64,000 nucleotides of DNA from Acidobacteriaceae bacterium (GTDB taxonomy: Bacteria; Acidobacteriota; Terriglobia; Terriglobales; Acidobacteriaceae): assembly GCA_035944135.1 (NCBI GenBank), contig DASZBM010000010.1, positions 124,001 through 188,000 of the forward strand, in the 5' to 3' direction. Each line of letters starts with the position of its first letter. The stretch's first letter is position 1. This document shows, in pieces, positions 29,241-63,122 of this stretch. The notes under the pieces were generated by a model that was not told the DNA's origin, did no database searches, and worked only from the letters and a program-made list of their open reading frames with translations. The translations under genes and the position numbers were made by a program.

Positions 29241-29282
29241 AGTTAGCGATTGAGGGGTTAGGGGTTAGGGGTGAGCGATAGT
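29241..29282. repeat. Heptanucleotide array GGGTTAG
   Basis: Six consecutive 7-mers; the core is GGGTTAG twice (29255-29268) followed by GGGTGAG, with decayed units on both sides. It starts 17 bases upstream of the DUF1641 start codon. It is the inverted partner of the CTCACCC/CTAACTC array at 29421-29448 (TTAGGGGTGAG pairs with CTCACCCCTAA). Confidence 0.75.
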
Positions 29283-29334
29283 GAGGTTCGTGGTGGAAAA
29301 GGGTTGAGCGTTCCTGGGAGTACCGGCATACTCG

Positions 29335-29375
29335 GGGTCCTTCGACTACGCGCTTCGCGCTCCGCTCAGGATGAC
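29335..29375. repeat. REP-like dispersed palindromic element
   Basis: The stretch begins GGGTCCTTCGACTACGCG and ends GCTCAGGATGACA, with GCGC-TTC-GCGC in its centre. The form GTCCTTCGAC...CTCAGGATGACA is a widespread interspersed repeat. A related end (TGTCATCC...) recurs at 63941. It lies between the two facing heptamer arrays of the DUF1641-formate dehydrogenase spacer. Confidence 0.6.
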
Positions 29376-29420
29376 AGCTGGCTTGAGGAGCGAGGAGAGT
29401 AGAGGCCAGCGTTTCGATCC

Positions 29421-29446
29421 CTCACTCCTCACCCCTAACTCCTCAC

Positions 29447-29448
<2 letters not shown>
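29421..29448. repeat. Heptanucleotide array CTCACTC/CTAACTC
   Basis: Four consecutive 7-mers (CTCACTC, CTCACCC, CTAACTC, CTCACTC). The last one contains part of the stop codon (29447-29449) of the formate dehydrogenase gene. Inverted partner of the array at 29241-29282. Confidence 0.75.
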
Positions 29449-32512
<3,064 letters not shown>

Positions 32513-43406: not shown

Positions 43407-43505
43407 GTGAAGAGTGAGTAGTGAATAGTGAAGAAAGCCAAAGCGGTTACAACGACGAAGATGAACGCGGCTATGTTCAGGTCTTATTCACTATTCACTA
43501 ATTTC
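43407..43505. repeat. Facing heptamer arrays in the trpC-trpF spacer
   Basis: 43407-43434 is four 7-mers of the GTGAATA type. 43485-43505 is three of the inverse type (TATTCAC twice, then a decayed unit). The second array includes the last codons and stop of trpC (VNSE*, stop at 43484-43486), and the first lies 8 bases before the trpF start codon. The two arrays are inverted complements and could fold on each other across 50 bases. Confidence 0.75.
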
Positions 43506-44299
43506 TTCAGCGCTTCTCCGGGTCGCGGCTGGCGCATGAGGGATTCGCCGATGAGGAAGGCTTCGTAGCCGGCGGCGCGGAGGCGCTGCATGTCCTCGCG
43601 TGTGTGGATGCCGCTCTCCGCCACACGCACTGCGGATTGTGGGAGTCGGGCGGCGAGCTCGCACGCGCGATCGAGTGAGACCTCAAAGGTGCGCAGATCG
43701 CGGCTGTTGACGCCGACGCATTCGCAGTCGAGCGCAAGCGCGCGGTCGAGCTCTTCGGCATCGTGAACCTCGCAGAGGACGTCCAGTTCGTAACGGAGGG
43801 CTTCATCGCGCAGCGTGCGCAGCTCGGAGTCTGTGAGCGCGGCAACGATCAGGAGAATCGCGTCGGCGTTGTTTGCGCGGGCTTCCACGATCTGGAATGG
43901 ATCGACCATGAAGTCCTTGCGCAGGCATGGGATCGACGCGGCTGCCGAGGCAAGGCGCAGATTCTCGAGCGATCCCTGGAAGAACTTTTCGTCGGTCAAC
44001 ACCGAGAGGACTGCGGCTCCGGCCTGTTCCATCTCTTTCGCTAGTGCAGCGGGGTCGAACTCGGCACGAATCAGGCCTTTCGACGGTGACGCTTTCTTTA
44101 GCTCCGCGATGATGGCAGGACTGGTCTGCGCCTTGGAACGCAGCGCACGTGCGAACCCGCGCGGCTGATGCTCGGCTGCGGCACGCTCCATGGCGCGCAT
44201 GTCCGTCGCGGCCTTACGCTCGGCGACAACTTCGCGCGTATGCGTCAGGATCTCCGGCAAATACATCGTGCGTGCGGCGGCGAGACTCATCTCTTCCAT
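43484..44299 (-). CDS. trpC: Indole-3-glycerol phosphate synthase
   Basis: Closes the indole ring in tryptophan synthesis. 271 residues. Motifs: PAIIAELKKASPSKGLI (catalytic Lys of the first loop, about 62), VLTDEKFFQGSLENLR, CLRKDFMVDPFQI (about 125), and the C-terminal VGVNSRDLRTFEV then RVAESGIHTREDM. The last four residues VNSE and the stop are written by the 7-nt repeat. It is divergent from the HAD gene with a 26-base gap. Confidence 0.95.
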   Translation of the reverse strand: MEEMSLAAARTMYLPEILTHTREVVAERKAATDMRAMERAAAEHQPRGFARALRSKAQTSPAIIAELKKASPSKGLIRAEFDPAALAKEMEQAGAAVLSVLTDEKFFQGSLENLRLASAAASIPCLRKDFMVDPFQIVEARANNADAILLIVAALTDSELRTLRDEALRYELDVLCEVHDAEELDRALALDCECVGVNSRDLRTFEVSLDRACELAARLPQSAVRVAESGIHTREDMQRLRAAGYEAFLIGESLMRQPRPGEALKKLVNSE

Positions 44300-45623: not shown

Positions 45624-48515
45624 CTACGCCTTGCCCGCAAGCTGCCGCAGCACGTACTGCAGAATGCCGCCGTGCTGGTAGTAGAGGATCTCCTGCGGCG
45701 TGTCGATGCGGATGCGCGCCTCGAAGGTCTTCTTCTTACCGTCGGGCGACGTGGCGACGACGGTAACAGTGCGGCCGTTCTCGAATTTCTGGTCGAGCCG
45801 CTCCTTGAAGCCCACGATGTCGTAGGTTTCCTCGCCGTTCAGCCCAAGCGAATCGGCATTCTTGCCCGCTTCAAATTCGAGCGGCAGGATACCCATGCCA
45901 ACAAGATTGCTCCGGTGAATGCGCTCGTAGCTCTCCGCGATGACAAAGCGGATGCCGAGCAGCCGCGGTCCCTTCGCCGCCCAGTCGCGCGACGAGCCTG
46001 AACCGTACTCCTTGCCCGCGATGATGCACAGCGGCGTGCCGCGCTCAGCATATTTAACCGAAGCATCGTAGATGCTCATGCCTTCGCCCGCAGGTAGCAG
46101 GCGTGTCACGCCGCCCTCAGTTCCCGGCGCCAGTTTGTTACGCAGGCGAACGTTGGCAAAGGTTCCGCGCACCATCACCTCGTGATTGCCGCGGCGCGAT
46201 CCGTACGAGTTGAACTCGAACGGCTTCACGCCGTGCTCGGTGAGGTACTTGCCTGCAGGGCCGTTCAGCTTGATCGATCCGGCGGGAGAGATGTGGTCGG
46301 TTGTGACAGAATCGCCGAGCCACGCCAGCACGCGCGCGCCCTTGATGTTCTCGACAGCAGCTGGCGTGGCCGGCATGCCGTCGAAGTACGGCGCCTTGCG
46401 GATGTAGGTCGAGTCCTGCTCCCATCCGTAGGTGTCGCCGCTGGGAAACTTCAGGTTCTGCCAGTTGGCATCGCCGTCGCTCACCGTGCTGTATTGCTGG
46501 CGGAACATCTCGGAGTCGATCGATGCCGCGACGGCGTCGGAGACTTCCTTCTGGCTCGGCCAGATGTCGCGCAAAAACACTTCCTTGCCATTCGAGCCCT
46601 TGCCCAGCGGCTCTGTGTCGAAGTTGTGCTCGATGTGCCCGGCGAGCGCATACGCGACGACCAGGGGCGGCGACATCAGGTAGTTCGCACGCACCTCCGG
46701 CGAGATGCGGCCCTCGAAGTTGCGATTGCCGCTGAGCACGCTGACAGCCACGAGGCCGTGCTCCTCAATCGACTTCGAGACATCCTCAGGCAGCGGGCCG
46801 GAGTTGCCGATGCAGGTCGTGCAGCCGTAGCCGACAACCTGGAAGCGCAGCTTGTCGAGGTACGGCAGCAGGCCGGCGCGCGTGTAGTAGTCGGTGACGA
46901 CACGCGAGCCCGGCGCGAGCGAGGTCTTCACCCATGGCGGCGTGCTCAGCCCTGCCTCAACAGCCTTCTTCGCGAGCAGACCCGCCGCGACCATCACGTA
47001 CGGATTCGACGTGTTGGTGCAGCTTGTAATGGCCGCAATCACAATCGAGCCGTTGCTCATGTATTTGTCAGGATCCACGCCGAAACGCGCACGCACCGTG
47101 TGCTCTTCGGGCGTCGCGGTCTGCTGCTGACCTCCCATCGGCTTCTCGTGCGACGTCGCCGTCACGGTGACGCTCACCGGAACCTCCGGCGTCGGTGAAC
47201 CGACGGAGCTCGCGAGATTTCCGTCAGCACTGGTGTGGCCGCCTTCGCCCTCCCAGCGCACCATCTGGCGCACCTCGTTCTTGTTCGCGTTCGGTCCGAG
47301 CAGGCTCGGCAGCACCTTCGCGAAGCTCTCCGGCGTTTCGCGCAACAGCACGCGATCCTGCGGACGCTTCGGTCCGGCGACGCTCGGCTCTACTGTGCTG
47401 AGGTCGAGCGACAGCGTGCCGGAGTACACGGCTTCGGGCGCGTCCGGTGTGTGGAAGAGGCCCTGCGCCTTGTAGTACGCCTCGGTCAGCGCGATGTGCT
47501 CTTCAGTGCGCCCCGTGAGGCGCAGATAGTTCAGTGTCTCGGCGTCCACCGGGAAGATGCCGCAGGTCGCGCCATACTCCGGCGCCATGTTCGCGATGGT
47601 CGCGCGATCGGCGAGCGGAAGCTGGCTGATGCCAGAGCCGTAGAACTCGACGAACTTGCTCACAACGCCGAACTTGCGCAGCATCTCCGTCACGGTGAGC
47701 ACGAGATCTGTAGCAGTGGTGCCTTCGCGCAGCTTGCCGGTCAGCTTGAATCCGACGACCTGCGGAACGAGCATGCTCACCGGCTGTCCAAGCATTGCGG
47801 CCTCGGCTTCAATGCCGCCCACGCCCCATCCCAGCACGCCCAGTCCGTTGATCATCGTCGTGTGCGAGTCCGTGCCAACGAGAGTGTCCGGGTACGCGAT
47901 CGTCTGGCCGTTCTCTTCTTTCGTGAAGACCACGCGCGCGAGGTACTCGAGGTTCACCTGGTGGCAGATGCCCATGCCGGGCGGCACGGCGGAGAAGTTG
48001 TCGAACGCGGTCTGTCCCCACTTGAGGAAGGCATAGCGCTCGCGGTTGCGCTGAAACTCGAGCGCCGCGTTTAGATCGTAGGCCTTCGCGCTTCCGTACT
48101 CGTCCACCTGCACGGAGTGGTCGATGACCAGCTCTGCCGGAACGAGCGGATTGATCTTCTGCGCATCGCCGCCAAGCACCTTCATCGCATCGCGCATCGC
48201 CGCGAGGTCAACGATGGCGGGCACGCCGGTGAAGTCCTGCATCAGCACGCGCGCGGGCATAAAGGCGATCTCGCGCGAGGGCTCAGCCTTGGCGTCCCAG
48301 TTGGCGAGGAAGCGAATGTCGTCGGCCGTCACGGTCACGCCGTCTTCGCGGCGCAGGAGGTTTTCGAGCAGGATGCGCAGCGAGTACGGTAGCCGCTCCA
48401 GCTTCGCGCCGGTGGACGCAAGCGCGGCCAGGCGGAAGTAACGCACAGTCTTGCTGCCGGACTTCAATTCGGCGGCTGCGTGAAAGCTGTCAGGATGAGC
48501 GTTTGAGGTAGCCAT
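45624..48515 (-). CDS. acnA: Aconitate hydratase
   Basis: TCA-cycle enzyme that interconverts citrate and isocitrate; it carries a 4Fe-4S cluster. The three cluster Cys are at about 499 (ITSCTNTSNP), 565 and 568 (GCTTCIGNSG). The N-terminal aconitase A domain has GTDSHTTMINGLGVLGWGVG, and the C-terminal swivel is GSSRDWAAKG. At 963 residues it is longer than the usual ~890. An inserted polar linker before the first Cys (about 420-470, GEGGHTSADG...VTATSHEKPMGG) accounts for this. ATG 48515 follows AAGGAG by nine bases. Confidence 0.96.
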   Translation of the reverse strand: MATSNAHPDSFHAAAELKSGSKTVRYFRLAALASTGAKLERLPYSLRILLENLLRREDGVTVTADDIRFLANWDAKAEPSREIAFMPARVLMQDFTGVPAIVDLAAMRDAMKVLGGDAQKINPLVPAELVIDHSVQVDEYGSAKAYDLNAALEFQRNRERYAFLKWGQTAFDNFSAVPPGMGICHQVNLEYLARVVFTKEENGQTIAYPDTLVGTDSHTTMINGLGVLGWGVGGIEAEAAMLGQPVSMLVPQVVGFKLTGKLREGTTATDLVLTVTEMLRKFGVVSKFVEFYGSGISQLPLADRATIANMAPEYGATCGIFPVDAETLNYLRLTGRTEEHIALTEAYYKAQGLFHTPDAPEAVYSGTLSLDLSTVEPSVAGPKRPQDRVLLRETPESFAKVLPSLLGPNANKNEVRQMVRWEGEGGHTSADGNLASSVGSPTPEVPVSVTVTATSHEKPMGGQQQTATPEEHTVRARFGVDPDKYMSNGSIVIAAITSCTNTSNPYVMVAAGLLAKKAVEAGLSTPPWVKTSLAPGSRVVTDYYTRAGLLPYLDKLRFQVVGYGCTTCIGNSGPLPEDVSKSIEEHGLVAVSVLSGNRNFEGRISPEVRANYLMSPPLVVAYALAGHIEHNFDTEPLGKGSNGKEVFLRDIWPSQKEVSDAVAASIDSEMFRQQYSTVSDGDANWQNLKFPSGDTYGWEQDSTYIRKAPYFDGMPATPAAVENIKGARVLAWLGDSVTTDHISPAGSIKLNGPAGKYLTEHGVKPFEFNSYGSRRGNHEVMVRGTFANVRLRNKLAPGTEGGVTRLLPAGEGMSIYDASVKYAERGTPLCIIAGKEYGSGSSRDWAAKGPRLLGIRFVIAESYERIHRSNLVGMGILPLEFEAGKNADSLGLNGEETYDIVGFKERLDQKFENGRTVTVVATSPDGKKKTFEARIRIDTPQEILYYQHGGILQYVLRQLAGKA

Positions 48516-48946: not shown

Positions 48947-50596
48947 ATGCAAGTCACAGCCACCACCATTCGTCGTGCCTTAGGCGCGATCGCTTTCTCG
49001 GGCACACTGGCGCTAGCCGCCGGATGCCACAGCAGCCAGGCCAACGCCGGGCCGGATCCAGCCGCGGCCAATATGGCGCCGGCCAACGGCCAGACGCAGG
49101 TTCTTGGACAAAACGCCGCCTACACGCCGGAGCAGCAGGGTGAGTCTTATCCGCAGCAGCCCGGCTACCCGCAGCAGGCGCCCGCTCCGATCGAGCAGGG
49201 CTATCCGCAGCAGGGTTACGCTCCGCAGGCCGGCTACCCCGATCAGGAGCTCGCCGGCGAAGAGGCGCTCGAAGACACCACGCAGCCGCCTCCGCCGCTG
49301 CCCGATTACGATCAGCCGCCGGCTCCCGGGCCTGACTACATATGGACGCCGGGTTATTGGTCATGGGGACAAGAGGGCTACTACTGGGTGCCGGGCGCCT
49401 GGGTTGAGCCGCCCTATTATGGCGCGCTTTGGACTCCGCCCTACTGGGGCTGGTACGGCGGCCGCTATCGCTTCCACCACGGCTACTGGGGACGTCACGT
49501 CGGCTACTACGGCGGCATCGATTATGGCTTCGGCTACATCGGGATCGGCTACTTCGGCGGCTACTGGAACAACGACCACTTCTACTACAACACTGCTGTG
49601 ACTCGCGTCGGCGGTGGGATTCGAAACGTCTACCAGCGGCCGGTGGTCTATAACAATGTCCGCTACGGCGTTCAGCCGGCGAACCGCGTGAGCTACAACG
49701 GCGGCCGCGGCGGTATCAGCGTGCAGCCTCGACCGACCGAGGTCGCGGCGATGCGTGAAGCCCACACCGCGCCATTGGCCGCGCAGAATCAGGTTCGCGT
49801 TGAGGCCTCGCAGAACCGCGCGCAGTTCTACAACCAGAACCACGGCCGGCCCGCGATGGCCTCAGCGCAGCATGGCTTTGCGAACACACGCGGCATTGCT
49901 CCAGCGCCTCGCGTGGCGGAGCCTGCCGGTCCTGCTCCGGGCGCTCGTCCGGGTCAGCCCAACGGCGCCTACATGAACGACCGTGGTGTGAACGGTGCAC
50001 GGCCGCAGCCCTACAACGAAGCGCCCCGTGTCGACAACCGCGCGGTGCAACCGCAGCCGAATGGCGCCGCGCCGCGCTACGACAACCGAGCGCAGCCTCA
50101 GCCGCAACCGAATGCCGGTAACCCGCGTTTTGACAATCGTGCGCAACCGCAGCCGAATGCGGCAGCGCCACGCTATGACAACCGCGCACAACCTCAGCCG
50201 CAACCGCGTGTAGAAAACCGGCCGCAGCCACAACCGCAGCCGAATACGAACCCGCGGTTCGAGCATCAACCCTCGCCGCAGCCGCAGCCGCGGATGGAGA
50301 ACCGTCCGCAACCGCAGCCGCAGCAACGTCCGCAGCCTCAGCCACAACCGCAACAGCGGATGGAGAACCGTCCACAGCCGCAACCTCAGGCACGCCCGCA
50401 GCCGCAACCGCAGGCGCGCATGCAGCCGCAGCCGCGCCCAATGCCTCAGCCGCAGCAGCACGTTGAGAACCGGCCGGCGCCAGCGCCAGCACCGCGTCCG
50501 CAGGCACCACCGCCGCAGGCTCATCCTGCGCCGCCACCTCAGCAGCATGGAAATCCCGCCCCCGCAAACCGCGGCGACGAGCACGGCCATCGCTAA
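48947..50596 (+). CDS. YXWGXW-repeat lipoprotein with a Pro/Gln-rich tail
   Basis: 549 residues. Lipobox LALAAGC puts the lipidated Cys at about 27. The middle (about 115-200) holds the YXWGXW-type segments (YIWTPGYWSWGQEGYYWVPGAW, GWYGGRYRFHHGYWG). The tail from about 330 is a long Pro-Gln array with decayed RVENRPQPQPQ / YDNRAQPQPQ units of about 12-16 residues. Such proteins are outer-membrane lipoproteins with extended, hydrophilic surface arms. The ATG follows CCAAGGG. The tail length is likely variable because the DNA repeats are near-identical. Confidence 0.85.
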   Translation: MQVTATTIRRALGAIAFSGTLALAAGCHSSQANAGPDPAAANMAPANGQTQVLGQNAAYTPEQQGESYPQQPGYPQQAPAPIEQGYPQQGYAPQAGYPDQELAGEEALEDTTQPPPPLPDYDQPPAPGPDYIWTPGYWSWGQEGYYWVPGAWVEPPYYGALWTPPYWGWYGGRYRFHHGYWGRHVGYYGGIDYGFGYIGIGYFGGYWNNDHFYYNTAVTRVGGGIRNVYQRPVVYNNVRYGVQPANRVSYNGGRGGISVQPRPTEVAAMREAHTAPLAAQNQVRVEASQNRAQFYNQNHGRPAMASAQHGFANTRGIAPAPRVAEPAGPAPGARPGQPNGAYMNDRGVNGARPQPYNEAPRVDNRAVQPQPNGAAPRYDNRAQPQPQPNAGNPRFDNRAQPQPNAAAPRYDNRAQPQPQPRVENRPQPQPQPNTNPRFEHQPSPQPQPRMENRPQPQPQQRPQPQPQPQQRMENRPQPQPQARPQPQPQARMQPQPRPMPQPQQHVENRPAPAPAPRPQAPPPQAHPAPPPQQHGNPAPANRGDEHGHR

Positions 50597-57225: not shown

Positions 57226-58209
57226 ATGAGCCTGCTTGCCGCAGTGCAGAATCACGGGTATGCGGCGACGGCGCTCATTCTGCTGCTGTCGTCATGCGGC
57301 CTTCCGCTGCCCCTTTCCATCGTGCTCCTCACCGCCGGAGCCGCCGCCAGCGCCGGTTCGCTGAACCTCGGTCTGGTCATCCTGTGCGCCGCCTCCGCCG
57401 CGCTCCTCGGCGACACCATCATGTATTTCGGCGGCCGATTTACAGGTTGGTGGCTCCTCGCCGGCCTCTGCCGTGTCAGCCTCAATCCGGAGACCTGCAT
57501 CTTCGGCTCCGCGCGCTCGTTTTATCGCCGCGGGCCGCGCACCCTGCTGTTCGCCAAGTTTGTCCCGGGTCTCGGCACGGTTGCCGCTCCGCTGGCCGGC
57601 AGCCTCAACATGCGCCTCACCCGCTTCCTCAAGCTCGACGCCTGTGGCGTGCTCTTCTACACCACCGCATGGAGCACCGTCGGCTTCCTCTGCGCGCCAT
57701 TTCTCCGCGACATCGTCCGCTGGGTTGTTCGGGTCGGGCATCTCACCGCAGCCACTCTCAGCGGCGTGGTCGTGCTGTATATCCTCTGGCTGCTCGGCAG
57801 CTCTTTGCGCGACAACCGCTTCAGCAACATCGAGCGCGTCGCCGCCGACCAGCTCTACGACCGCCTGAAAGCGGCGACGCACGATAAGCTCCTCGTGATT
57901 GCCGATGTTCGTTCGCACGGCTATTACGATCCCTCCGCGCAACGCATCAAGAACTCCATCCGCGTCGAGCCCAACCGCCTCCGCGAAGAGCTCGAGGCCC
58001 TGCGCGAGTTCATGGCGCCGGAGTGCGAGATCTATCTCTACTGCTCCTGCGCCCGCGACGCCACCAGCGTTCGCGTCGCGCGCGAGCTCGAAAAAGAGAA
58101 CTGCTCCACCAAAGTGATCGCCGGCGGACTGAAGGCATGGATCAAAGCTGGTGGTCCGCTGGAACCAGTACCGCCCACCGACGTCGAGCATCTACCGAAA
58201 TTCAACTAA
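57226..58209 (+). CDS. DedA/VTT-family membrane protein fused to a rhodanese domain
   Basis: 327 residues. Residues 1-190 are the DedA (VTT) membrane part: SSCGLPLPLSIVLLTAGAAA, GDTIMYFGGRFTG and FAKFVPGLGTVAAPLAG (the conserved F...RFxPG...PxxAG motif). Residues about 210-315 are a rhodanese-like domain with LVIADVRSHGYYDPSAQRI and the active loop YLYCSCARDATS (Cys273). Such fusions link a lipid-transport membrane module to a sulfur-transfer or redox loop; the substrate is unknown. ATG 57226 gives the DedA start. Confidence 0.88.
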   Translation: MSLLAAVQNHGYAATALILLLSSCGLPLPLSIVLLTAGAAASAGSLNLGLVILCAASAALLGDTIMYFGGRFTGWWLLAGLCRVSLNPETCIFGSARSFYRRGPRTLLFAKFVPGLGTVAAPLAGSLNMRLTRFLKLDACGVLFYTTAWSTVGFLCAPFLRDIVRWVVRVGHLTAATLSGVVVLYILWLLGSSLRDNRFSNIERVAADQLYDRLKAATHDKLLVIADVRSHGYYDPSAQRIKNSIRVEPNRLREELEALREFMAPECEIYLYCSCARDATSVRVARELEKENCSTKVIAGGLKAWIKAGGPLEPVPPTDVEHLPKFN

Positions 58210-63078: not shown

Positions 63079-63091
63079 CAAGCCGCCCTTC

Positions 63092-63119
63092 TTAACTCCT
63101 CACCCCTAACCCCTAACTC
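63092..63119. repeat. Heptanucleotide array CTAACCC upstream of the phosphoesterase
   Basis: Four 7-mers (TTAACTC, CTCACCC, CTAACCC, CTAACTC) end three bases before the ATG at 63123. The array fills the place where an RBS would be expected, and no Shine-Dalgarno is seen. Same family as 29.2/29.4 kb. Confidence 0.75.
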
Positions 63120-63122
63120 CTT

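Follow-up and report, generated by a model that had tools for sequence, protein, structure and literature searches.

Heptanucleotide short tandem repeats are known in heterocystous cyanobacteria as the STRR families. In the parts drawn on here, Rehm et al. (2015, PMC4692102) describe GGGAATC and GGGGA(C/T)T heptamers of Xanthomonas and Nostoc as mostly intergenic tandem repeats, found either no more than 50 bp from a stop codon, on the coding strand, or ahead of an open reading frame, on the non-coding strand. Inverted pairs number 70 in Xcc and 75 in Xac, with only a few in Nostoc, and the heptamers are presented as G-quadruplex-forming, with an unknown role. The excerpts used from Kaasalainen et al. 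(2015, PMC4476775) concern Class I/II repeats in the P6b stem-loop of the Nostoc trnL (UAA) intron, and those from MacGregor (2015, PMC4679880) concern TAACTGA direct repeats of Beggiatoaceae, cyanobacteria and Bacteroidetes. The locus analysed here, in an acidobacterial genome, belongs to a large class of intercistronic stem-loops in which each arm consists of tandem copies of a 7-nt word. A literature search that included PMC4060949 and mostly covered papers outside subscription turned up no paper describing such arrays in Acidobacteria.

As far as the consulted sections of these papers go, each system shares part of the arrangement. The Xanthomonas and Nostoc heptamers have the 7-nt tandem period, intergenic site, stop and start placement and inverted pairs. 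They differ in that the present arrays, from another phylum, use many words per genome, most of them not G-quadruplex-capable, and in that the words here differ between species at one junction and combine a constant core with variable positions. The P6b stem likewise has arms of complementary 7-nt repeats, with the repeat class swapped and the structure kept; it is a single locus in a group I intron, whereas the present class occupies many intercistronic sites. TAACTGA repeats are also 7-nt arrays that lie in intergenic DNA next to genes and have an AACT core, but as one exact word, mostly forward before start codons and with one inverted repeat reported. Exact TAACTGA direct repeats just before start codons do not describe the present arrays, which differ in words and positions. 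The preliminary description had likened the arrays to the heptameric repeats of cyanobacteria, and this comparison is supported; the point in common with the STRR families is the heptanucleotide tandem repeat.

The window is the whole 64-kb stretch of DNA that was analysed, and its features are listed in Table 1. The spacer of interest covers 222 bp from the upstream stop codon (29447-29449, reverse strand) to the DUF1641 start (29224). Its flanking genes were assigned from Pfam matches to molybdopterin oxidoreductase and Fe-S domains upstream and to DUF1641 downstream. On the transcribed strand, a purine-rich array opens in the stop codon, sharing 2 bases with it, and its pyrimidine-rich complement stops about 29 nt short of the next start codon. 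TRF reported unit AGGGGTT at 29253-29272 (2.9 copies, 100%) and unit CCTCACT at 29420-29448 (4.1 copies, 81%). A unit model read on the C-rich strand, YTMACYM, placed four units at 29421-29448 on the forward strand and three at 29255-29275 on the reverse strand. A strict identity test at lags 4 to 14 found no array in the window because the units differ at one or two positions. Within the inverted-repeat arms, pairing is tighter between 29257-29275 and 29428-29446 (19 nt, 89%). The predicted fold of the spacer RNA has the arrays paired, and as a whole is only moderately better than shuffles (z -2.38; 3/200 shuffles as good). The preliminary description was therefore right that the two arrays are inverted complements across the spacer, that they could fold the mRNA and that a REP-like element lies between them.

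Table 1. Positions of genes, heptamer arrays and associated elements in the 64-kb window
Feature	Position	Strand	Details
Formate dehydrogenase-like molybdopterin oxidoreductase, 1021 aa	29447..32512	-	Upstream gene; Pfam
DUF1641 protein, 151 aa	28769..29224	-	Downstream gene; Pfam
Left heptamer array AGGGGTTAGGGGTTAGGGGTGAG	29253..29275	Purine/G-rich strand on +	TRF, unit model; about 29 nt upstream of DUF1641 start
Right heptamer array	29420..29448	Purine/G-rich strand on -	TRF, unit model
Inverted-repeat left arm	29248..29279		32 nt, 84% complementary to 29417-29448, 137 nt between
Inverted-repeat right arm	29417..29448		Partner of 29248-29279
REP-like hairpin GTCCTTCGACTACGCGCTTCGCGCTCCGCTCAGGATGAC (GTCCTTCGAC..CAGGATGAC)	29337..29375		In loop between window arrays
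Second pair, left array AGTGAAGAGTGAGTAGTGAATAGTGAA	43406..43432	+	TRF, period test; between two - genes
Second pair, right array (TTCACTATTCACTA on +)	43485..43500	-	Overlaps 3' end of gene 43484-44299 (-)
Single array (TTAACTCCTCACCCCTAACCCCTAACTC on +)	63090..63121	-	Fills 44-bp spacer between two + genes; no inverted partner found
Array at stop codon	63870..63892	+	TRF, unit model, genome pattern search; partner just past window end, contig C10:188047-188074 (window 64047-64074)

Two further features of the window are separate observations. Long imperfect tandem repeats at 50047-50460, within a predicted gene (48947-50596), are probably a low-complexity protein segment. A 21-nt Rfam match to a plant-virus pseudoknot at 47914-47934, inside a predicted gene, barely exceeds the gathering score; it is the lone match at that threshold and probably due to chance.

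Across the 4.43-Mb genome, three successive YTMACYM units gave 86 matches and the backward pattern gave 0. The matches fall into three word groups (TTCACTA/CTCACTA, CTAACCA/CTAACTA and CTAACCC/CTCACTC) and form 54 clusters, of which 52 were analysed; two on contig C10 (361827 and 399196) were left out. Strict lag-7 thresholds gave few arrays, and looser scoring against shuffles was used instead. A word-free test of this kind on 400 kb of the same genome (G000; 71 kb noncoding) gave 11, 11 and 7 arrays at periods 7, 14 and 21, against 0.0, 0.0 and 0.4 in shuffles and 0-4 arrays at each remaining period from 4 to 20; these densities are not genome averages, since the stretches were chosen with the match list known and hold 0/86 matches. 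The test added CAGTTTT, AGCTATG and AACTCGC to the words of this genome.

Genes for the position test were called with a simple codon-based caller. All 52 arrays lie outside predicted genes, apart from edge overlaps of up to 25 nt, and 46 have a gene edge no more than 60 nt away. The purine strand points from gene to spacer in 39 of these 46 (binomial p 2e-6): it is sense after a stop in 26 and antisense before a start in 13, with 7 reversed. The same polarity appears in the sections of PMC4692102 considered here, where the G-rich strand is sense after stops and antisense before starts. By spacer type, 38 arrays are codirectional, 11 convergent and 3 divergent, and the 242 sample spacers of at least 20 nt comprise 148, 41 and 53, respectively. 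The divergent share (3/52 against 53/242) indicates that divergent spacers are avoided. An inverted partner was found in the direction in which the purine strand points for 22/52 arrays and in the opposite direction for 1/52, where a partner had to lie within 500 bp and score better than the best of 30 shuffles, and both arms of a pair were counted if each had three units. For 30/52 arrays, no partner within 500 bp was detected. The earlier proposal of heptamer arrays placed at gene ends and in opposed pairs is upheld by these counts.

Hairpin anatomy was examined in 287 distinct spacers (40-350 nt) from loci fetched for four proteins. A strong hairpin occurred in 59; hairpin loci had been picked for arrays in at least one species, and the related species are not independent. 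In the typical layout, a purine/G-rich array runs from the upstream stop and a C-rich array stops just short of the next gene, around a loop that is short, holds leader sequence or contains an inserted REP-like element. Period 7 is confined to the arms and absent from the loops. Arm self-match in the 59 congener hairpins was 0.57-0.58 at lag 7 and 0.63-0.64 at lag 14, against 0.22-0.31 at other lags from 4 to 15; the lag-7 value was 0.27 in 18 loops and 0.29 in 228 hairpin-free spacers. Heptamer-type hairpins accounted for 34 of the 58 with arms long enough. Their 5' arms are purine-rich (31/34), contain more G than C (33/34) and have AG fixed at one phase (29/34, against a shuffle mean of 1.3). 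Within-array mismatches cluster in particular phases (62 arms; z 16.6; 0/2000 shuffles), so part of the heptamer unit is constant and the rest variable. Unit-by-unit arm pairing in 31 hairpins scored 822 against 753.9 (sd 8.7) when permuted (0/1000), a value inflated by the choice of arms for pairing. All 34 lie in codirectional spacers, which is unremarkable because 265/287 spacers in that set are codirectional. In unselected samples, strong hairpins of any kind occurred in 3/173 spacers of G000 and in 30/126 of the congener G002, where arms scored 0.30-0.33 at lag 7. Samples of G006 and G017 had no excess of period-7 hairpins. A permissive Rfam search with the rplY-pth stem matched microRNA hairpin models only.

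Other kinds of hairpin and repeat were considered against this set. G-quadruplex elements, as proposed for the GGGNATC repeats of Xanthomonas and Nostoc, would suit G-rich words such as GGGATTA and GGGTTAG and a position rule that is also the one reported in the available text of PMC4692102. They are highly improbable as the general explanation: four G3 tracts in an arm occur in 6/34 heptamer hairpins and no G3 tract at all in 16/34, so a quadruplex-capable GGGNATC or GGGGA(C/T)T word does not describe the class, and TAGTGAA, AAGTGNN and TAGAGNN words occupy equivalent positions. In the window pair, the left array has three G-tracts and the right array two. Ordinary intrinsic terminators are extremely improbable. 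The hairpins do follow stop codons, and a terminator-like hairpin is seen by eye in some loops (L013, L015), but a run of at least five Ts after the stem was found on either strand in 0/34 heptamer hairpins, and several stand between codirectional genes, such as rplY-pth. Both were rejected as general explanations. Purine arms often show TAG or TGA every 7 nt by eye, as if supplying stops in all frames; this reading was dropped because these arrays are also found in antisense orientation ahead of start codons.

Strict words of the YTMACYM pattern were found in 6/41 genomes, including the genome of the window. A reading that limits the feature to those six was dropped, as the control pattern itself matched other heptamer words in congeners, and word-free period and pairing tests replaced the strict pattern. 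Six congeners, chosen for having control-pattern matches, carry heptamer arrays of other words. At the rplY-pth junction, opposed heptamer arrays were seen by eye in 16/26 congeners, in differing words that include GGTTAGT, ACAGTAG, AGTGAAT, TAGAGNN, AAGTGNN, CAGTTNT and AGCTCCTGGCTTCT; none were seen by eye in the remaining 10/26. Arrays at the prs-rplY, rpiA and zwf junctions differ in word among the species that have them and are missing from other species; rpiA and zwf were selected for a hairpin in G002 or G022. At the window junction, spacers in 23 scored congeners measure 9-111 nt, some with short arrays of other words, and by eye none has an opposed pair like that of the window; in this comparison the start codons set by the script for G018 and G017 are uncertain, and the G008 upstream gene is provisional. 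The pair is thus not needed at that junction. Octamer arrays, with GCGAGTCA and GACTCGCT units, occupy similar positions in the formate dehydrogenase-DUF1641 spacer of L118 (G017) and in L005. In L016, period-6 purine-rich units (AAAGAC, GGGCAA) lie beside an intergenic REP-like hairpin.

Five-unit [AC]ACTNNN arrays were found in 87/200 Terriglobia genomes and 45/82 genera, counts that have no clean null because the backward control was contaminated by other heptamers; it has matches in many of the 200 genomes and in some outnumbers the pattern (G094: pattern 4, control 62). Four loci taken from that search lie after a stop (L344, L345), before a start (L346) and away from called genes (L347). 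These counts suggest that the heptamer trait is widespread in the class Terriglobia. About 15 kb of noncoding DNA each from G017, G006 and G001 gave 1, 0 and 0 period-7 arrays and no excess; G016 stretches were too short and were left out. A 7-nt class in an acidobacterial setting, as put forward at the outset, holds. The arrays are neither rare, nor randomly placed, nor absent in relatives, which mostly use other words.

Turnover was followed between two close genomes, G002 and G022, which are 93.7-94.1% identical over 174 kb aligned. They share 89 orthologous spacers, four with heptamer hairpins. The identity of these four is 0.58-0.68, against a median of 0.93 in 61 other spacers of similar length, of which 2 fall below 0.78. 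By hairpin score, the stem is present in both genomes at 3/4 sites. At the fourth, gnd-zwf (80366), the G022 stem, of AGAGGAT units, passes the score, and G002 falls below it with a stem that is irregular by eye. At rplY-pth, the core is AGAG in one genome and AGTG in the other, and the flanks and loop can still be aligned by eye. The AGGG core is constant at prs-rplY and tkt-rpiA, where most of the variable bases have changed. Three further sites were chosen from array matches. Two keep an AAGTG core and differ in unit number or a few substitutions, and the third has a hairpin in G010 and none in G002 or G022. Turnover thus extends from a handful of substitutions up to fully reworded arrays, and includes gain and loss. 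The word often differs between species while the stem-loop stays, so shape rather than sequence may be what is kept.

The pth-rpsF spacer has a lag-7 stretch that lacks an inverted partner and is identical in G002 and G022, so some lag-7 stretches do not turn over. In the pth-rpsF spacers of L137-L162, a leader (AATCTTCCACACCG ... CGGTGCGGGGCAGAACCCCGCAGAAAGAAG) precedes rpsF and is well conserved across the genus by eye. It resembles a ribosomal leader of the S6:S18 type; Rfam gave no match to it in L137, L143 or L149.

A neutral by-product, with slippage arrays piling up in tolerant spacers and pairing as a mutational echo that has no function, is possible but doubtful. It would accommodate arrays gained or lost between species at the same junction, the single state of 30/52 arrays and the mixed functions of adjoining genes. 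It sits poorly with the strong position and polarity rule, with a constant core beside variable positions, and with the persistence of the stem despite sequence change, both at three of the four scored G002/G022 sites and, by eye, at two more that were picked because one genome had an array. A different view, that the inverted pairing is itself secondary, would draw on the constant core with its variable remainder, the single phase of AG in most 5' arms and the placement of arrays beside starts and stops. It is unlikely, given that words vary among sites of one genome and among species at one site and that the purine strand is sense after stops and antisense before starts.

The preliminary description had further suggested that the array pair marks insertion of a composite element. 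We judged the REP-like hairpin of the window to be separate from the arrays. At one orthologous site, G022, G002 and G010 all have arrays, and a REP-like element lies in the loop of G022 and G002 and not of G010. A REP motif stands between the arms of 4/22 paired arrays in the genome, two of the four being the window's own pair. At prs-rplY, the 5' arm lies at the prs stop and the 3' arm, where present, inside the loop of the rplY leader hairpin. Scored separately in 25 of 26 species (one left out), both arms occur in 5/25, the 5' arm only in 3/25, the 3' arm only in 2/25 and neither in 15/25 (Fisher p 0.017). Array and REP thus do not move as one unit in the manner of a REP/BIME or MITE, and the suggestion is not supported. 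A composite, MITE-like array-REP-array transposable unit inserted between genes would account for the length of the window spacer relative to its 23 scored congeners and for the same words at dozens of sites in one genome. It is nevertheless quite unlikely in view of the REP-less site, the few REP-bearing pairs and arms at two separate points in partly one-armed species, and was rejected as a general explanation.

The rplY leader is of interest in its own right. A 27-nt hairpin (GGGAGCGAGGCTCAACCTCGTGCCCGA) lies just upstream of rplY (ribosomal protein L25) in prs-rplY loci such as L137 and L149. Of 25 congeners tried, 23 were matched; the hairpin is letter-identical in 14/23 and one base off in 1/23, and in other congeners a heptamer arm opens it. 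No Rfam family matched it, and it is possibly an L25 leader. Several spacers of both G002 and G022, for example at 57444 and 64894 in stretch 1, contain long inverted repeats whose arms resemble TTTGCTTTTCTGGTTGTCATTCCGAGCG. This REP/MITE-like family is separate from the heptamer hairpins.

The explanation we favour, with about even confidence, is that these are intercistronic hairpins grown by 7-nt duplication and arm-to-arm template-switch copying, and tolerated or kept for their shape; slippage, template switching and any function are what we infer. In this scheme, an array would grow beside a gene edge by slippage in 7-nt steps. Template switching during replication would then copy it, as the reverse complement, to a nearby point across the spacer, giving the facing arm, and later switching would preserve the match between arms as words drift, expand or give way to others. 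Template switching can create and maintain stems according to the portion of PMC8794818 considered here. The stem would be tolerated or kept as a hairpin of the intercistronic mRNA, or as a cruciform, with shape rather than sequence mattering, and could perhaps form an exonuclease or ribosome boundary between cistrons. Against this explanation, phase-clustered variation is not predicted by plain slippage with random mutation, most arrays have no detected partner, and heptamer hairpins are sparse in unselected samples. The missing pair in the 23 scored congeners at the window junction, the G002 stem below the score at gnd-zwf and the unchanged pth-rpsF spacer also count against it.

Slippage alone leaves the constant core unexplained, which leaves room for more novel readings. 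One is a dedicated Terriglobia process that would place heptamers built to a fixed grammar, with a constant core (AG in the purine arm) and two or three free positions, in both arms and replace them more quickly than the rest of the genome diverges. Complementarity would be enforced, by an enzyme that copies a template or by template switching with a strong bias, and arm sequence would be disposable. We consider such a process improbable.

The positions and inverted pairing of the Xanthomonas and Nostoc heptamers recur here with mostly non-quadruplex words. As these words differ between close species at one junction and the stem is usually kept, the stem and the 7-nt step appear to be what is shared. 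The class offers many parallel loci for the long-standing question of how RNA stems arise and stay paired, and such loci could separate slippage with template switching from compensatory selection.
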